64,000 nucleotides of DNA from Gloeobacter kilaueensis JS1 (lineage in GTDB: Bacteria; Cyanobacteriota; Cyanobacteriia; Gloeobacterales; Gloeobacteraceae): positions 2,108,001-2,172,000 of the forward strand of contig NC_022600.1 in assembly GCF_000484535.1 (NCBI RefSeq), in the 5' to 3' direction. Positions within the stretch are counted from its first letter, which is position 1, and each line of letters starts with the position of its first letter. A program made the translations under genes and the position numbers. Below, piece after piece: positions 8,874 through 15,778 of this stretch. The notes beneath the pieces were generated by a model. It did no database searches. It was not told the origin of the DNA and saw nothing but the letters and a program-made list of their open reading frames with translations.

Positions 8874-11591
8874 TCACGGTGGCAGCACCGCTCCTGCTTC
8901 CCGATGCCCGTGTCTGGGTAATTGCACGGGCCGCCAGTCTCCCGACGCCGCAAAGGACGCCCACCAAAAAGGGTGCGACCGCTGCGGCTGGTTTAGAATT
9001 GCCAGCTGCGCCTGCCGGAGCGCTTCGGAGCGCCCTGCCCCCGCTGCCAACCGCTTATAGAACCGTTTCATCAGCTCCGCCGTCGTCCGGTCCCCCACCG
9101 CCCACAGGGCGAGCATCTGGCTTCTTGTCCCCGCCAGGGCCAGGGCTCGCCTCAGCCCCTGTACGCCCTCGCCGCCGACGACGGGACCGGCTCCGCTCTG
9201 GCAGGCCGATATCACCGCCAGTTCGGTCCCCTCCAGGTCGAGTCCCTGGGCTTCGAGGGCGGTGAGTACGCCGTCTTCGCTTCCCGAGGAGCGGACATTG
9301 AAGCCTGCCAGGGCGACTCCAGAGCGCAACAGCGGCTCCTGGGAGTCGGCTTCATTCTCGGTACTGTCCTGGTCTTCGAGAAAGAAGCCGTGGGTGGCCA
9401 GGTGCAACAGCGCCGGGGAGTGGGTAGCTTTGAGGGCGTTCTCGGTCGCCTGCGCTCCGATCAAAAGCCGGGTTGTAGGGGTGCCCAGCAACCGGGCGAC
9501 GGCAGTGGCCTCGGCTCTTGCCCCTGGCAGGGGTTGGACGGTGAAGCCCGCTAGAGCGGAGGAGCGCAGGTTCTCCTGCGACGAGCGCGGGCGTTCTATT
9601 TCGCTTATCTTTCCAGCTGCTTGCCCCTTCCCGGTGACAGGTTGGGCAGCAAGGAACGGGGCAGGACCAGCGCGGCCAAAATCTGGCCCCCCCACTACCA
9701 GCGGTGCGCTTCGAGGTGTCGGTGGTGCGACCTGGGCCAGACGGGGCAGTTCGCGCCCAGAAACAAGGTAGGTGAGGGTGTGAGCCTGCAGCAAAAAGTG
9801 TCCATCTGGCCCAATCAGGGCAGCGAAGGGCACGGTGTTGAGCTGTCCATCGGGGGCAATCAGCAGGTGCTTGACTTGCAGGTGGCTTGCCAAGGGAGCA
9901 AGAAGCTTTTTGTACAGGAGGCGGGCAAGCTTGCGGACCGGGCCATCGACTGGAGCAGTCGGATCGAGCAACCAGCCGCGCCAGGTGTCTACCAGCCTGT
10001 CTATCTGTCGGGCATCGCCAAGATCGACCCCGAGGGGCGACCCCGTGGGCGAGAGCAGGTAGGCGGCGTAGCGCGGTGCCCCGAAGTGCTGGGCGGGGGT
10101 GGCCGACTGCAATTCAAAGGGACGGTAGAGCACGAACTCGACGAGTACCGCGTCCTTGGGCAGCGCTTGCTGAACCGCCTGGAGAGTGAGTGGGCGGGAA
10201 AAAGCACCCGGAGGACCACCGGTAGTTACCAGACTGTCCTCCAGTTGGTGGACCTGAGCACGCAGCGCCCTCACCTGGGTCTGGTATTGCTCGGGCGGTA
10301 GATCGGACTGCTGGAAGACGAGGGAGGCGAGTTGGGCGCGGGTATCGGCCAACTGCTGCAGGGGTTGCTGAGCGTTGGCGGGTAGGCGCAGACGCAGGCG
10401 GGCCAGGGCAAGCGTCGCTTCCTCCAGCACCCGGCCTTTGCGGCTGAGGATCGTAGCGAGAGCGAGGCGGGCGGCCTGAGGATCGGTTGGCAAACGGGAC
10501 AGGTGCAACCAGAGGGTAAAATCGGCAGCTTCTTTGAGGGATCTGAGGTAGGCAAGGCTGCGGGGTTGGGAGGCAGCCGGGAGGTTGAGCGTGAGGTTAT
10601 CCTCCTGGATGTCGAGAATCTGCTGGAGAATCTGGCGGGCATCGTCGAGTCGGTTTTGACCGAGGCGGAGCAGAGACAGCTCGAAGAGACTCTCGATCAC
10701 ATACGGATGCCGTGGCCCCAGGGCTTTCTCAAAAATGGCCAGACCGCGCTGGAAAAGTGCATCGGCACTCGTGTATTCGCCGCGCTCCCGGTACAGTCTG
10801 GCCAGGTTGTTGAGGTTCGCCGCCACGTTCCGATGTTCTGGCCCCAAAACCTTCTGCCAGATCGTCAGGGCTCGCTTGAGGAGGGGCTCAGCTCCGGTGT
10901 AATCTCCCCGGTCGGTGTACAGAATAGCCAGATTGTTGAGAGTCATCGCCACGTCCTGATGCTCCGGCCCCCGGACTTTTTCGAGGATGGCCAGGGCACG
11001 CCTGTACAGGGGCTCGGCCTCAGCGTCATTGCCTTGACTCGAGTACAAGATGGCCAGATTGCCGAGGATCACCGCCACGACCGGATGCTCCGGCCCCCGA
11101 ACTTTTTCGAGGATGGTCAGGGCACGCCTGTACAGGGGCTCGGCCCTGGCGTAGTCCCCCTGGTCGGCATACAGGACAGCGAGATTGCTGAGGGTCATCG
11201 CCACGTCCTGATGCTCCGGCCCCCGGACTTTTTCGAGGATGGCCAGGGTACGCCCGTACAGGGGCTCGGCTCCGGCATAATTGCCCTGACTGTAGTACAG
11301 GCTGGCCAGGTCGTTGAGGCTCTGGGCCACCTCCGGGTGCTCTGGCCCCAGGACTTTTTCACGAATAGCCAGAGCCCGTTCGCTCAAAGGCTGGGCCTGC
11401 CCGTACTGGCCCATCTCCTGCAGCCGGATACTTTGCTCGTACAATCGCTTCGCTTCTGCCAGCTCCTCCTGCGATACCTGTACCGGTTGTGCCTGAGTAG
11501 ACTGCGGACAGGCGAAACCCAGGCTGGCTATCAGGGACAAAACGGAGAGCCACCGACGAGCAGAACGGCTTAGAGAAAAGGGCAATTGCAT
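8874..11591 (-). CDS. exported TPR-CHAT caspase-like protein
   Basis: 905 residues. An N-terminal signal peptide (SVLSLIASLGFACPQSTQAQ) is followed by about six kinesin-light-chain-type TPRs of 42 residues (roughly 43-300; repeated GPEHPxVAxxLNNLAxLY), a helical linker (300-470), then a C-terminal CHAT domain (about 475-890). The caspase-fold dyad is present: His734 in HLATHGFF and Cys797 in SACQSG. CHAT proteins are proteases or pseudo-proteases related to caspases and separases. The gene follows a sigma-like membrane protein by 16 bp, so the two are almost surely co-transcribed. Its target is unknown; the partner is an obvious candidate. Confidence 0.9.
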   Translation of the reverse strand: MQLPFSLSRSARRWLSVLSLIASLGFACPQSTQAQPVQVSQEELAEAKRLYEQSIRLQEMGQYGQAQPLSERALAIREKVLGPEHPEVAQSLNDLASLYYSQGNYAGAEPLYGRTLAILEKVRGPEHQDVAMTLSNLAVLYADQGDYARAEPLYRRALTILEKVRGPEHPVVAVILGNLAILYSSQGNDAEAEPLYRRALAILEKVRGPEHQDVAMTLNNLAILYTDRGDYTGAEPLLKRALTIWQKVLGPEHRNVAANLNNLARLYRERGEYTSADALFQRGLAIFEKALGPRHPYVIESLFELSLLRLGQNRLDDARQILQQILDIQEDNLTLNLPAASQPRSLAYLRSLKEAADFTLWLHLSRLPTDPQAARLALATILSRKGRVLEEATLALARLRLRLPANAQQPLQQLADTRAQLASLVFQQSDLPPEQYQTQVRALRAQVHQLEDSLVTTGGPPGAFSRPLTLQAVQQALPKDAVLVEFVLYRPFELQSATPAQHFGAPRYAAYLLSPTGSPLGVDLGDARQIDRLVDTWRGWLLDPTAPVDGPVRKLARLLYKKLLAPLASHLQVKHLLIAPDGQLNTVPFAALIGPDGHFLLQAHTLTYLVSGRELPRLAQVAPPTPRSAPLVVGGPDFGRAGPAPFLAAQPVTGKGQAAGKISEIERPRSSQENLRSSALAGFTVQPLPGARAEATAVARLLGTPTTRLLIGAQATENALKATHSPALLHLATHGFFLEDQDSTENEADSQEPLLRSGVALAGFNVRSSGSEDGVLTALEAQGLDLEGTELAVISACQSGAGPVVGGEGVQGLRRALALAGTRSQMLALWAVGDRTTAELMKRFYKRLAAGAGRSEALRQAQLAILNQPQRSHPFWWASFAASGDWRPVQLPRHGHREAGAVLPP
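10834..11361 (-). repeat. 126-bp tandem DNA repeats encoding TPRs
   Basis: Near-identical blocks recur every 126 bp (for example the GCTCCGG start at 10961, 11087 and 11213, with diverged copies at 10835 and 11339). They encode 42-residue TPR units. The high DNA identity of the middle copies suggests recent duplication or gene conversion inside the gene. Confidence 0.8.
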
Positions 11592-11607
11592 CTTCCAACG
11601 TCCGCAA

Positions 11608-13479
11608 CTATTCGTACTTGTTTGTAGCTGCAGAACTCGCGCCTGATGCAGGAACGCTCTTTTGAGGGTCTTGTGCTGCCCGGTGGCAGCTCCAGCGGTG
11701 TTGTTCCGCTTCCAACGCCACCCGGTAGCGCCCGCTTCGGAGAGTGGCTTCCCGCCGCGTCGATAGGTCCTCTAATCTGCCAGCGGCCAGAAGGGTCTGT
11801 AGTGCGCCCAGTACGAGTGCATCCACCTGCTCACCGCCAGAGACGATGATTTCAGGAGAGGGGCTGCCCTCTACCGGCGTACCATCCGCTCCCAGGGTGG
11901 CTTCGATGACAGCGAAGCCCGCCAATCCTGCCGGCACGGGGGCTGCAGCTGCGAGGGCGGCGCACAGGTTCCTGGCATCCGATGGAATGGAGAGATCATC
12001 CGGCTCGCGCACCCTGTCGGGGAGCCTTCCAGTATTCGCTGGAGGCCGCTTTGTCTCTGTTTTGCTGAAATTTTGGACACGCTTAGACGCCCCGGCGGTA
12101 CCTGCTTTTGAGATGGAAAGGCCGTGTTTGTCCTGGGGTCTGGGCATGCTGCGCTGCGTCTGGGACGTGGCGGAGCTTGCGCTTTGTTGGGCAGACCGCG
12201 CAGATGAAGCGGCGGAGACGGTCCGGGGAGAAGGGCTGCTTGTAGCCGCAATCGGCTGTTTCGCAGCACTTTTTATCGGAGTCGAGAAGGGGCGACCAGC
12301 CGTGGCAGGTTGTGGTCTGTGCTCGATCGGTGAGCGCAGGGGAGGCTGCAGTTCGGAGGGTACGAACACGAACAGCGCCCAGGCTGCGGCCACTGCTCCC
12401 GTCGCCGCAGATGCCACCTGCAGCGCCCTCGAACCGCTCGCCCAGACTTGTGATGGCGCGGGGCCGGCCAGTAGCTCGTCCAGCAACTCTCCTACCGGGC
12501 CACCGGCAAGCTCGGGCGGTGCGAATACGGTCCCTTGCCACCCCGAGCGGCGCACCAGCTCCGGCAATGCTTGCTCGAAGGCAGCCCGCGCCACTGTACC
12601 GGAGGCTCCAGCGGGCCCGGTTGCAGGCTGCAACCTGCCCTCCGATAGTCCCCGACAGAAAGCCGTTCCACCGCAATCGTCCTCGAAATTTTCGCCTAAA
12701 ATCTCCGCCAGCCTCTCGGCGGCGCGCTTGAGCTTCTGGCTCACCCGGCCAGGGGTCAGCCTTACCGAGCGGGCCACCTCCTGTTGCCGCTCCCCCCGCA
12801 GGTGTACCCGCTCGACGAGCAGCCGCTCCGCCTCTGCCAGCCTCTCCAGAGCCCGCAAAAACCGCTCCCGGCACTGATCTTCGAGCAACTGGTTTTCAGG
12901 GCTACCCTCCTTGCTGGCGACGGTCTCGCCCAGGGCGGGCAGATCTCCGTCTTGCTGGGTCGTTCCTACTGGAGCATCGAGGGACAGAGGTGCGTGGGCC
13001 CACCGCCTGAGCCAGCGGCGCACCCGCCCGCCGTCCGTCTGCGGCACCCGCCGCCCCCAGTCAACGTCGATCTCGGAGCACAGGCGCTTGTACACCGGGA
13101 GGAGCACGTACACCTTAAACCAGGGTCCAAAGTGACCGCGCTCGGGGTCGAACTGGGGCAGACGGGCGTGGACCATGAGTTTGACTTCTTCGCTCAACAG
13201 TTCGGCGTCAAAGCGCGGATGGCTCCCGGCGGGCGAACGGCGACAGAACTCCCGGCACAACCGCTCGAGTACACCGTGGAACTCCCCGAGACCAGCCCGG
13301 CTCGCCTCGCGCTCCAACCGCCCCAGGCACTGGATTTTTTCTGTAGAAGAAAGACCCGCTGCGGCAACGACCTGCTGTCGCTTGCGCTCGATCGGTTGGA
13401 GGACCACAGCCAGTTGGTGCAATTGCTCGGCCTTGCTCTGGCGGGGGAATCGCTGCTCGAAAGGGAGAATATTGTCCAC
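11608..13479 (-). CDS. sigma-70-like protein fused to a TM helix and TonB_C-like periplasmic domain
   Basis: 623 residues from GTG 13479. The N-terminal half resembles an ECF-type sigma factor: a region 2-like part (FDPERGHFGPWFKVYVLLPVYKRL, about 110-133) and a region 4 helix-turn-helix (QQEVARSVRLTPGRVSQKLKRAAERL, about 232-257). A single hydrophobic helix follows at about 353-373, then a Ser/Pro-rich linker (374-500). The C-terminus (515-595) reads like a TonB C-terminal-type beta-alpha-beta domain (AVIEATLGADGTPVEG). The HTH would face the cytoplasm and the C-terminus the periplasm. It lies 16 bp upstream of the CHAT gene. The sigma call is from motif reading and needs a profile search. 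Confidence 0.72.
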   Translation of the reverse strand: MDNILPFEQRFPRQSKAEQLHQLAVVLQPIERKRQQVVAAAGLSSTEKIQCLGRLEREASRAGLGEFHGVLERLCREFCRRSPAGSHPRFDAELLSEEVKLMVHARLPQFDPERGHFGPWFKVYVLLPVYKRLCSEIDVDWGRRVPQTDGGRVRRWLRRWAHAPLSLDAPVGTTQQDGDLPALGETVASKEGSPENQLLEDQCRERFLRALERLAEAERLLVERVHLRGERQQEVARSVRLTPGRVSQKLKRAAERLAEILGENFEDDCGGTAFCRGLSEGRLQPATGPAGASGTVARAAFEQALPELVRRSGWQGTVFAPPELAGGPVGELLDELLAGPAPSQVWASGSRALQVASAATGAVAAAWALFVFVPSELQPPLRSPIEHRPQPATAGRPFSTPIKSAAKQPIAATSSPSPRTVSAASSARSAQQSASSATSQTQRSMPRPQDKHGLSISKAGTAGASKRVQNFSKTETKRPPANTGRLPDRVREPDDLSIPSDARNLCAALAAAAPVPAGLAGFAVIEATLGADGTPVEGSPSPEIIVSGGEQVDALVLGALQTLLAAGRLEDLSTRREATLRSGRYRVALEAEQHRWSCHRAAQDPQKSVPASGASSAATNKYE

Positions 13480-14395
13480 CGGTGTGACCTCATACTGTCA
13501 AGAAGACGCAAAAAGGGAAGCCCGCTACGGGACAGAGCTTGATAATATAAACCCCGCTTCATAGTAATAGGGGAAATGATAGCGCAGTTCGTTCATTTCT
13601 CAATCTCCTTGAAATAGGGAATTGTCGATTGACAACTGCCGCAGAACGTTGCACAGGGGCTTCTATACAGTTAGGGAAAGGAACACCCAGAGGTTACTTT
13701 TCGGGTGGATCAGAAAAAATTTTGGCAGAGGACTAAACCTGGCCCTCATTTTTGGATACAGGGATTCTGAGACAGTACATTCGCGGTCGGATGGCCAGTT
13801 AGCCACTCCCACAGCAGGGTAATCCACCTGCACGGATGCCTGTCTCCTGTAAAATCTGCTTCTGCCTGCCGTCGCGAACTTCGAGGGGTGCCGTCGTCAT
13901 TCGGCTAAGAGTTCGGGGGGGTTCTATCGCAATGATTTCTGAGAGCAAAACAGGCAGGTACACAGACTTTACAGGAGTGCTACTCGTGGCATTTTTCTGT
14001 TCTCGCACAACAGCATCATCCGTGCGCTGCTCCTTGCCGCTGCCAGCGCTCGATCTCTACTCTGCAACCAGCGATAAATTATGCAAAGAAAACGAATGAA
14101 ACTATTGAGTCAGCCAGCCAGTTCCGGTAGCAATTTGCTGTTGTCTTCGCTCGACTATCGCCTGTATCGCCTGGGCTGGAACCACCGCCTGCACAGTCCT
14201 CCCCATCCCATCCTCTGGATAGTGATGAGCTTGAGCTATCTATACCGCAGGGGATTCAAGGAGGCGTCCCGGTGGGCAGCAACGCAGCACTCTCAGCGCG
14301 CAGAAAAGCGAGACTGACCTGGCGGCGAAGAAATCGCGGCTCGACAGACCGGGGCGCTCAACCAGGAACAAAGACCAACTCAAGGAGCATATCCA
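13480..14395 (+). other. long intergenic region without a convincing gene
   Basis: About 0.9 kb between the sigma-like gene and the pentapeptide gene. Short frames exist on both strands, the best being an ATG at 14081 giving 78 residues, but none has a clear family, ribosome binding site or neighbour logic. The stretch next to 13479 is AT-rich (around 13540-13620) and likely holds the promoter of the sigma-like/CHAT unit. I see no tRNA or repeat array here. Confidence 0.5.
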
Positions 14396-15778
14396 ATGGC
14401 AAATCTGCAGCACCTGAAAATACTCCTGAGCGGCACTCTGCAGTTTGCAGCGTGGCGGAAGGCCAACGGAAACCTTCGGCCCGATCTGGCGGCGGCCATC
14501 CTGCAGGGAGTGAATCTGTACTACGCGGATCTGGGTGAGGCCGACTTGAATGGAGCCAACCTGGGGGGAGCGAATCTGGGGGGAGCCAACCTGGGCGGGG
14601 CGAGCTTGAACGGAGCCAACCTGAGCGGAGCCAACCTGGGCGGGGCGGATTTAAGAGGGGCGGACCTGAGTGAGGCCGACTTGAGCTGGGCTGACTTGAA
14701 CTGGGCCGATCTGAGCGGGGCCAACCTGGGCAGAGCGGATCTGAGCGGATCGAACTTGAACTGGGCCGATCTGCGCGGAGCGTATCTGGGTGGAACGGAT
14801 CTGAGCAAGGCAGACCTGCGCGAAGCAAGCCTGAGCGGGGCCGCTTACCTCAAGGGCGTGGACCTGCACGGGGCCAACCTGAGTGGAGCCAACCTGAGCA
14901 GGGTGATCATGAATGGCGTGGACCTGGAAGAGGCGGACCTGCGTGGGGCAAACCTGGGCGGGGCGGACTTGCGCAGGGCGAACTTGAACAGGGCGAAGCT
15001 GAGTGGAGCGAACCTGGAGCGCGCGAACCTGAAGGGAGCGGACCTGAGCGGCGCAGATCTGCGCCAAGTCCGTCTGGCCGGTTGTTGCCTTGAGGAGGCA
15101 ATTTTGCAAGGCTGTCGGGTATACGGGACGGCTGCCTGGGACGTCAAAATCAACGAGCGCACCGATCAGCGCAATCTCCTCATCACCGATGTGGGTGAAG
15201 CTGCAGTGAGCGTGGACAACTTGAAGATCGCCCGGTTTCTCCACCTCCTGCTCGACAACACCGAACTTAAAGACGCCATCGACGCGCTCACCTTAAAGGC
15301 AGTGCTGATTCTGGGGCATTTTTCGCCGGAGCGACAGTCCGTCCTCGCTGCCCTGCAAGGGGAACTGCGCCGGCGCGATCACCTGCCCATTGTCTTCAAC
15401 TTTGCCGGTAGCGAAACCCAGACGACGATCGAAACGGTCAGGGCTCTGGCGGGCCTGTCGAGGTTTGTCATCGCCGATCTCGCCGATGGCAGGAGCATCC
15501 CTGCACAGCTGCACACGACCGTCTCCGAGTTGGACAACCGGGCGTTCGTGCTCATCGCCGAAAAAAGCAGCCGAATACATGGACAAGTTGAAAATTTCTT
15601 GAATCGGGTGAACGTTGTGCAAGCCATCTTCGAGTACAGTTCACCGGAACACTTGATGGCATCGCTTGTGGAACGAGTGGTAGCTTCCGCCCAGGCGTGG
15701 TCCGAGCAGTTGTGCAACCGGCACACAAGGCCCATCACAACCCCTTTACTGTCCGACATTGCTTCGTCGGGTAACTGA
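14396..15778 (+). CDS. pentapeptide-repeat protein with TIR-like C-terminal domain
   Basis: 460 residues; AAGGAG precedes ATG 14396. An N-terminal helix region (FAAWRKANGNLRPDL) leads into about 38 pentapeptide repeats A(D/N)LxG, residues 38-235, which form a right-handed quadrilateral beta-helix. After a YGTAAWDVKI junction comes an alpha/beta domain (about 298-435: KAVLILGHFSPERQSVLAAL, then RFVIADLADGRSIP) with the alternating strand/helix order of TIR-like folds, known at the C-terminus of many cyanobacterial pentapeptide proteins. A catalytic Glu typical of NADase TIRs is not obvious. A sensing or defence-related role is possible but unproven. Confidence 0.85.
   Translation: MANLQHLKILLSGTLQFAAWRKANGNLRPDLAAAILQGVNLYYADLGEADLNGANLGGANLGGANLGGASLNGANLSGANLGGADLRGADLSEADLSWADLNWADLSGANLGRADLSGSNLNWADLRGAYLGGTDLSKADLREASLSGAAYLKGVDLHGANLSGANLSRVIMNGVDLEEADLRGANLGGADLRRANLNRAKLSGANLERANLKGADLSGADLRQVRLAGCCLEEAILQGCRVYGTAAWDVKINERTDQRNLLITDVGEAAVSVDNLKIARFLHLLLDNTELKDAIDALTLKAVLILGHFSPERQSVLAALQGELRRRDHLPIVFNFAGSETQTTIETVRALAGLSRFVIADLADGRSIPAQLHTTVSELDNRAFVLIAEKSSRIHGQVENFLNRVNVVQAIFEYSSPEHLMASLVERVVASAQAWSEQLCNRHTRPITTPLLSDIASSGN

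Follow-up and report, generated by a model that had tools for sequence, protein, structure and literature searches.

IutY of Pseudomonas putida, from group ECF243 of the extracytoplasmic function (ECF) sigma factors, is a sigma/anti-sigma single chain in which a cytosolic ECF sigma factor, one transmembrane (TM) helix, and a periplasmic anti-sigma region are joined; it is activated by removal of the periplasmic part and released by Prc as the site-1 and RseP as the site-2 protease (PMC5411451). Thus, such a single chain can work by two-step proteolysis. In ECF52, ECF53, and ECF48 of Actinobacteria (SCO4117), a sigma factor, a TM segment, a proline-rich extension, and an extracytoplasmic domain likewise share one chain, for which release by proteolysis has been proposed (PMC5826349, PMC8999054). 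The passage on ECF54 in the latter paper places CHAT, subtilase, and carboxypeptidase proteins in the gene neighborhoods of that group and proposes proteolytic control (PMC8999054). In type III-E CRISPR systems, the tetratricopeptide repeat (TPR)-CHAT protein Csx29 cleaves Csx30, which inhibits the ECF-like sigma factor CASP-sigma (PMC10028731). Finally, the ECF sigma factor SigG of cyanobacteria has a cotranscribed downstream partner gene, encoding SapG (PMC2758279). Here, we analyzed a 64,000-nucleotide stretch of the Gloeobacter kilaueensis JS1 genome (the window), in which a gene for a putative sigma factor fused to a membrane partner is followed by a gene for an exported TPR-CHAT protein.

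The two genes occupy window positions 8874 to 13479 on the minus strand, as do all of their features given below, in a genome that is a single contig of 4,724,791 bases. The fusion gene (11608 to 13479) starts with GTG and encodes 623 residues, and the CHAT gene (8874 to 11591; 905 residues) follows after 16 bp (11592 to 11607); coordinates, strand, and gap agree fully with an earlier note on this DNA. With evenly divided confidence, we propose that the first protein is a sigma/anti-sigma fusion that is held at the membrane and freed by regulated proteolysis, with the CHAT protein as the likeliest site-1 protease or as the sensor controlling the site-1 cut. The order of sigma factor, TM helix, and extracytoplasmic domain in one frame, seen in the window protein and nine homologues, is that of IutY; however, IutY is part of a siderophore-sensing system, whereas the window protein has a predicted fold of the TolA-III or TonB C-terminal domain (CTD) type beyond a long proline-rich linker, and a TPR-CHAT neighbor. 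ECF52, ECF53, and ECF48 belong to a different phylum and carry a zinc-finger anti-sigma domain, with a carbohydrate-binding module in addition in ECF52, neither of which is seen in the window protein; Pfam searches of the fusion protein at E values up to 1 returned no zf-HC2/ZAS zinc finger and no FecR. CHAT and subtilase genes occur in Gloeobacter loci, as they do around ECF54, but the passage on that group does not mention any fused TolA-like membrane partner (PMC8999054). Csx29 is activated by RNA together with Cas7-11, whereas the CHAT protein of the window carries a signal peptide, and SigG and SapG are two separate proteins. Among single-chain transmembrane sigma factors, the TolA-like arm and the pairing with an exported CHAT protein appear to be new. 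The main text of a survey of sigma factors in cyanobacteria published in 2024 (PMC11119718) mentions neither transmembrane sigma factors nor CHAT.

Sequence and predicted structure together give good support to the N-terminal part being a divergent ECF-like sigma factor. TIGR02937, the NCBIfam sigma70-ECF model, matched residues 73 to 260 with an E value of 2.4e-13, above the model cutoff. The region 4 helix-turn-helix (residues 194 to 262; 12694 to 12900) was matched by Pfam Sigma70_r4 at an E value of 1.3e-4, slightly below the cutoff, and region 4 of SigL aligned structurally to residues 189 to 267 (Z = 9.0; root mean square deviation [RMSD] = 2.3; 79 aligned residues). Region 2 (about residues 60 to 140; 13060 to 13302) is too divergent to be recognized in the window protein by Pfam. 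Sigma70_r2 was recognized in 6 of the 19 members of the family described below (best E value, 4.6e-5), and region 2 of SigC aligned structurally to residues 13 to 135 (Z = 8.1; RMSD = 2.3; 88 aligned residues). The earlier note had read a sigma region 2 and a region 4-like helix-turn-helix from the sequence, and both are borne out, by TIGR02937 for the whole, by Pfam and structure for region 4, and by relatives and structure for region 2. The divergence of region 2 and its absence from the Pfam results would suit an alternative in which the sigma-like part has become a membrane-bound regulator that uses its helix-turn-helix locally, or is a decayed paralog. We consider this very improbable, because the 19 homologues retain both FDPxxxxFxxW in region 2 and the helix-turn-helix of region 4, with invariant residues, and because long intact frames persist in six genomes of three genera. 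Just past region 4, alignment revealed a tail motif, F-x2-[DE]C-x2-T-x-FC (residues 265 to 275; 12655 to 12687); its two Phe residues and its first Cys do not vary in any of the 19 homologues, whether fused or split. The sigma part as a whole (12655 to 13479) has conserved cysteines at positions 75, 79, 203, 269, and 275, of which Cys203 and Cys269 are present in every one of the 19 homologues; this cytosolic part may contain a metal or redox site.

The sigma family comprises 19 members found in Gloeobacterales, including the window protein. Ten are fused and eight are split from a partner gene; the remaining one, L058, lies on a short contig and has no recognizable partner. In the split loci (L009, L010, L047, L048, L052, L053, L055, and L057), a gene encoding a TM helix and linker follows the sigma gene and overlaps it at ATGA or GTGA. 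The window genome contains three paralogs of the fusion, two of which are split: in L009, a 294-residue sigma gene is joined by an ATGA overlap to a gene for a TM-linker-TolA-like protein, followed by a TPR-CHAT gene, and in L010 there is likewise an overlap of the sigma and partner genes, but no CHAT gene. The alignment between split and fused forms is continuous across the sigma/partner junction. Overlapping genes for a sigma factor and a membrane partner are the standard layout of ECF sigma/anti-sigma pairs; thus, the window protein is best read as a fusion of a sigma factor with the anti-sigma-like partner that would inhibit it. The claim of the earlier note that this is a transmembrane sigma factor is well supported, whereas its statement that no separate anti-sigma factor is involved calls for revision in view of the eight split relatives, in which the C-terminal half is a gene of its own. 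A chance fusion or frameshift artifact was ruled out by an ortholog in G001 that is fused end to end (68% identity over residues 2 to 618) and by eight more fused homologues. Fused and split forms are intermixed in the tree, which implies two to three changes of state, and most of the deep branches are split; fusion has therefore probably arisen more than once.

The best candidate for the inhibitory element is a cytosolic helix at residues 294 to 316 (12532 to 12600; predicted helix, 294 to 312), which contains the sequence ALPELVRRSGW. In the alignment, the motif ALPxLxRRSGW is common to fused and split forms and, in the split relatives, opens the partner protein. The single TM helix follows at residues 353 to 371 (12367 to 12423), as detected by hydropathy in the window protein and its homologues. 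It lies at the equivalent position in fused and partner relatives, with scores of 1.6 to 2.4 that are mostly stronger than in the window protein. Beyond it, a Ser/Pro-rich periplasmic linker (11983 to 12366) is reflected in a predicted disordered stretch at residues 341 to 496, with a predicted local distance difference test (pLDDT) score below 50.

The linker leads to a C-terminal domain (residues 496 to 600; 11680 to 11994) with a predicted fold like TolA-III and the TonB-CTD. We predicted the structure of this domain alone, using 14 relatives (pLDDT, 73.3). In structural alignment, the top 13 entries were all TolA-III, TonB-CTD, or the TonB homologue FusB (Z = 7.9 to 4.7), and the next, unrelated entry scored Z = 4.1, with lower values after it; the whole-protein model agreed, with a TolA-III match at residues 493 to 597. 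Foldseek alone returned no significant match for the domain (TolA entries had probabilities of 0.41 to 0.47 and E values of about 1), so the fold assignment rests on this second-look structural alignment. Pfam TonB_C did not match the domain, and searching the Protein Data Bank with a sequence profile revealed no kin. A single profile-profile comparison with cyanobacterial TonB_C gave a marginal result in a plausible register (P = 0.0017; probability, 15.6%), with P values of 0.27 and 0.63 for sigma and CHAT controls. We accept the TolA-III/TonB-CTD fold for the predicted domain and leave homology to that superfamily aside. The predicted fold, with its 13 TolA-III/TonB-CTD entries, agrees with the TonB_C-like domain named in the earlier note. 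Cys506 and Cys598 are invariant in the domain and fit a periplasmic location; they could form a disulfide there.

A TM helix, a proline-rich spacer, and an end domain of the same predicted fold also make up the anatomy of TonB and TolA, which are driven by ExbB/ExbD or TolQ/TolR via a Ser/His pattern in the TM helix. This likeness raises the alternative that no proteolysis takes place: the TolA-like domain would bind an envelope protein, a pull or rearrangement transmitted by the TM helix would free the sigma factor, and the CHAT protein would be a scaffold or a regulator of the binding partner. Unlike TonB and TolA, however, the window protein has a sigma factor at its cytosolic end, sequence similarity to TonB_C that is marginal, and a TM helix (residues 353 to 371) that contains no His and so does not follow the Ser/His pattern of energy transducers. 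In addition, a sigma factor held at the membrane could hardly reach promoters widely. We therefore regard purely conformational release as improbable.

The downstream protein has an intact dyad and a CHAT profile match, indicating a putative peptidase. It begins with a signal peptide (about residues 1 to 35; 11487 to 11591) that ends in an A-x-A-Q type site, common to most homologues, and continues with an array of six TPR_10 stretches (10602 to 11474) and a CHAT peptidase domain (8937 to 9932; PF12770, E value of 1.8e-86). His734 and Cys797 of this domain are invariant in all 15 CHAT proteins compared. The signal peptide, six TPRs, and CHAT dyad noticed earlier from the sequence were all recovered. 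The TM helix and the export signals place the TolA-like domain and the CHAT domain on the same side of the membrane.

A TPR-CHAT gene lies beside or near 13 of the 19 family loci, including all 10 fused ones and the split loci L009, L048, and L053. It is directly downstream in the window, L044, L049, and L009; downstream but one gene away in L045 and L050; upstream in L046, L051, and L054; divergent in L011; convergent in L056; and divergent at a distance of 2.5 to 3.8 kb in L048 and L053. Six loci have no CHAT gene nearby, and among them L057 and L058 stop at a contig edge. Finished Gloeobacter genomes have six or seven CHAT genes each, and we estimate that random placement would bring roughly 2% of loci this near one. 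The varied orientations suggest that the linkage outlasts any single operon layout. The earlier note, which had called for a survey of this adjacency, made its reading depend on a sigma profile match, a TM helix (placed by it at residues 353 to 373), and conserved proximity to CHAT genes, and all three were found. A sigma gene was not found in the fetched stretches of 44 other CHAT loci (35 from other cyanobacteria and 9 other Gloeobacter CHAT genes), in a scan whose positive control was that the sigma model recognizes family members. Sigma and CHAT divergence correlated with r = 0.82 over 13 pairs, mostly reflecting orthology, and with r = 0.47 (P = 0.06) for one pair per ortholog group. Other genes also recur at these loci. 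Secreted hydrolases lie between the fusion and CHAT genes in L045 (6122 to 7126) and L050 (9195 to 10238), a GDSL lipase in both, and in L056 (8967 to 9800), a DNA/RNA nonspecific endonuclease. A subtilase gene directly follows the split sigma/partner pair in L048 (4994 to 7102, minus strand; the locus in which PF00082 was tested) and L053 (9353 to 11320, plus strand), and the interval that separates the divergent CHAT gene from the split sigma gene encodes two FG-GAP/W-rich repeat proteins in L048 (8679 to 10806) and L053 (5485 to 7618).

From this arrangement we infer helix inhibition, proteolytic release, a role for the CHAT protein, and a signal, which would be connected as follows. The inner membrane would anchor the sigma part, and the ALPxLxRRSGW helix would probably prevent its access to RNA polymerase. 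The chain would cross the membrane once and extend through its proline-rich spacer to the TolA/TonB-like domain, which may sense envelope conditions or a partner in the outer membrane. Upon a signal, the periplasmic arm would be cut and a site-2 protease would let the sigma part enter the cytoplasm; the window genome encodes site-2-type proteases, with two strong PF02163 matches. The neighboring exported TPR-CHAT protein would be the likeliest first (site-1) protease, or a sensor controlling that cut. It is the leading candidate because it is exported, linked, and preceded by Csx29 and ECF54, which makes it a plausible first protease. One lead to a cut site is Arg491 (12007 to 12009), which, prolines aside, is the sole linker residue that does not vary among the fused proteins. 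At 15 to 19 residues ahead of Cys506, an Arg preceded by Thr or a hydrophobic residue is present in all 11 CHAT-linked proteins with a TolA-like domain and absent from all 3 CHAT-less ones. We treat Arg491 as a possible CHAT cut site and as a weak lead only, since the pattern was found post hoc and the CHAT-less contrast amounts to one evolutionary event.

Several observations weigh against the proposal of CHAT-linked proteolytic release. L010 and the ortholog group L047/L052/L055 are sigma/partner pairs without a CHAT neighbor, so the pair can exist without a CHAT gene in cis; such pairs would depend on a CHAT protein acting in trans or on a different protease, as the subtilase beside L048 suggests. 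In L048 and L053, the subtilase gene is nearer than the CHAT gene. The window protein has a weakly scoring TM helix (hydropathy, 1.64), and confidence is moderate both in the AlphaFold model of the whole protein (mean pLDDT, 61.6) and in that of the C-terminal domain. Apart from Arg491 itself, this part of the linker is unconserved, and the Arg contrast is a single independent event. Pairs without CHAT would also be expected if general envelope proteases (Prc or Deg-type, then a site-2 protease) released the sigma factor and the CHAT gene were its target gene or downstream effector rather than its activator. IutY is released by just such general proteases, Prc and RseP, and the exported hydrolases in the loci (the lipase in L045 and L050, the endonuclease in L056, and the subtilase in L048) look as if these were regulons of exported enzymes. 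We nevertheless consider control by general proteases rather unlikely, as all 10 fused members have a CHAT gene near them, in varied orientations. More tentatively, and with less than even confidence, we suggest a signaling system of the cell surface specific to Gloeobacterales, in which a sigma factor extends a TolA/TonB-type arm of its own across the periplasm and is freed by an exported, caspase-like TPR-CHAT protein as the site-1 protease; the CHAT protein would then directly activate transcription from beyond the inner membrane. When 386 genomes from the phylum were searched with a profile and the six best candidates per genome were scored, the family was found in the window genome only, with two further weak matches to region 4 alone. 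A scan of GTDB genome contigs with eight sequences, which used one peptide pattern and had limited reach, found Gloeobacterales only.

If CHAT-linked release is correct, control of sigma factors by caspase-like CHAT proteases would extend from the cytoplasm, where Csx29 and Csx30 act, to the envelope, and one of the many exported TPR-CHAT proteins of cyanobacteria would gain a natural function. A sigma factor would then reach into the periplasm by a TonB/TolA-like arm, providing a new signaling route from envelope to gene in a primitive cyanobacterium. The presence of split and fused relatives within the same genera makes this model directly testable and shows how such fusions arise.

The gene pair is flanked by a pentapeptide-repeat gene and a RodA/FtsW-like gene. 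An autoregulatory promoter was sought by comparing upstream regions, and only a weak sigma-70-like candidate emerged, TTGAGA-16-TATCAT (13576 to 13603, minus strand), upstream of the fusion gene. One such site was found against 0.7 expected, no better than chance; the TATCAT box is also present in the ortholog L044. The approximately 900 bases between the divergent genes (13480 to 14395) appear to be noncoding and contain one pair of 15-nucleotide inverted repeats 104 nucleotides apart. The divergent pentapeptide-repeat protein (14396 to 15778, plus strand) has a C-terminal part that is not made of pentapeptides, and a pentapeptide-like gene seemingly lies upstream of the L044 ortholog as well.
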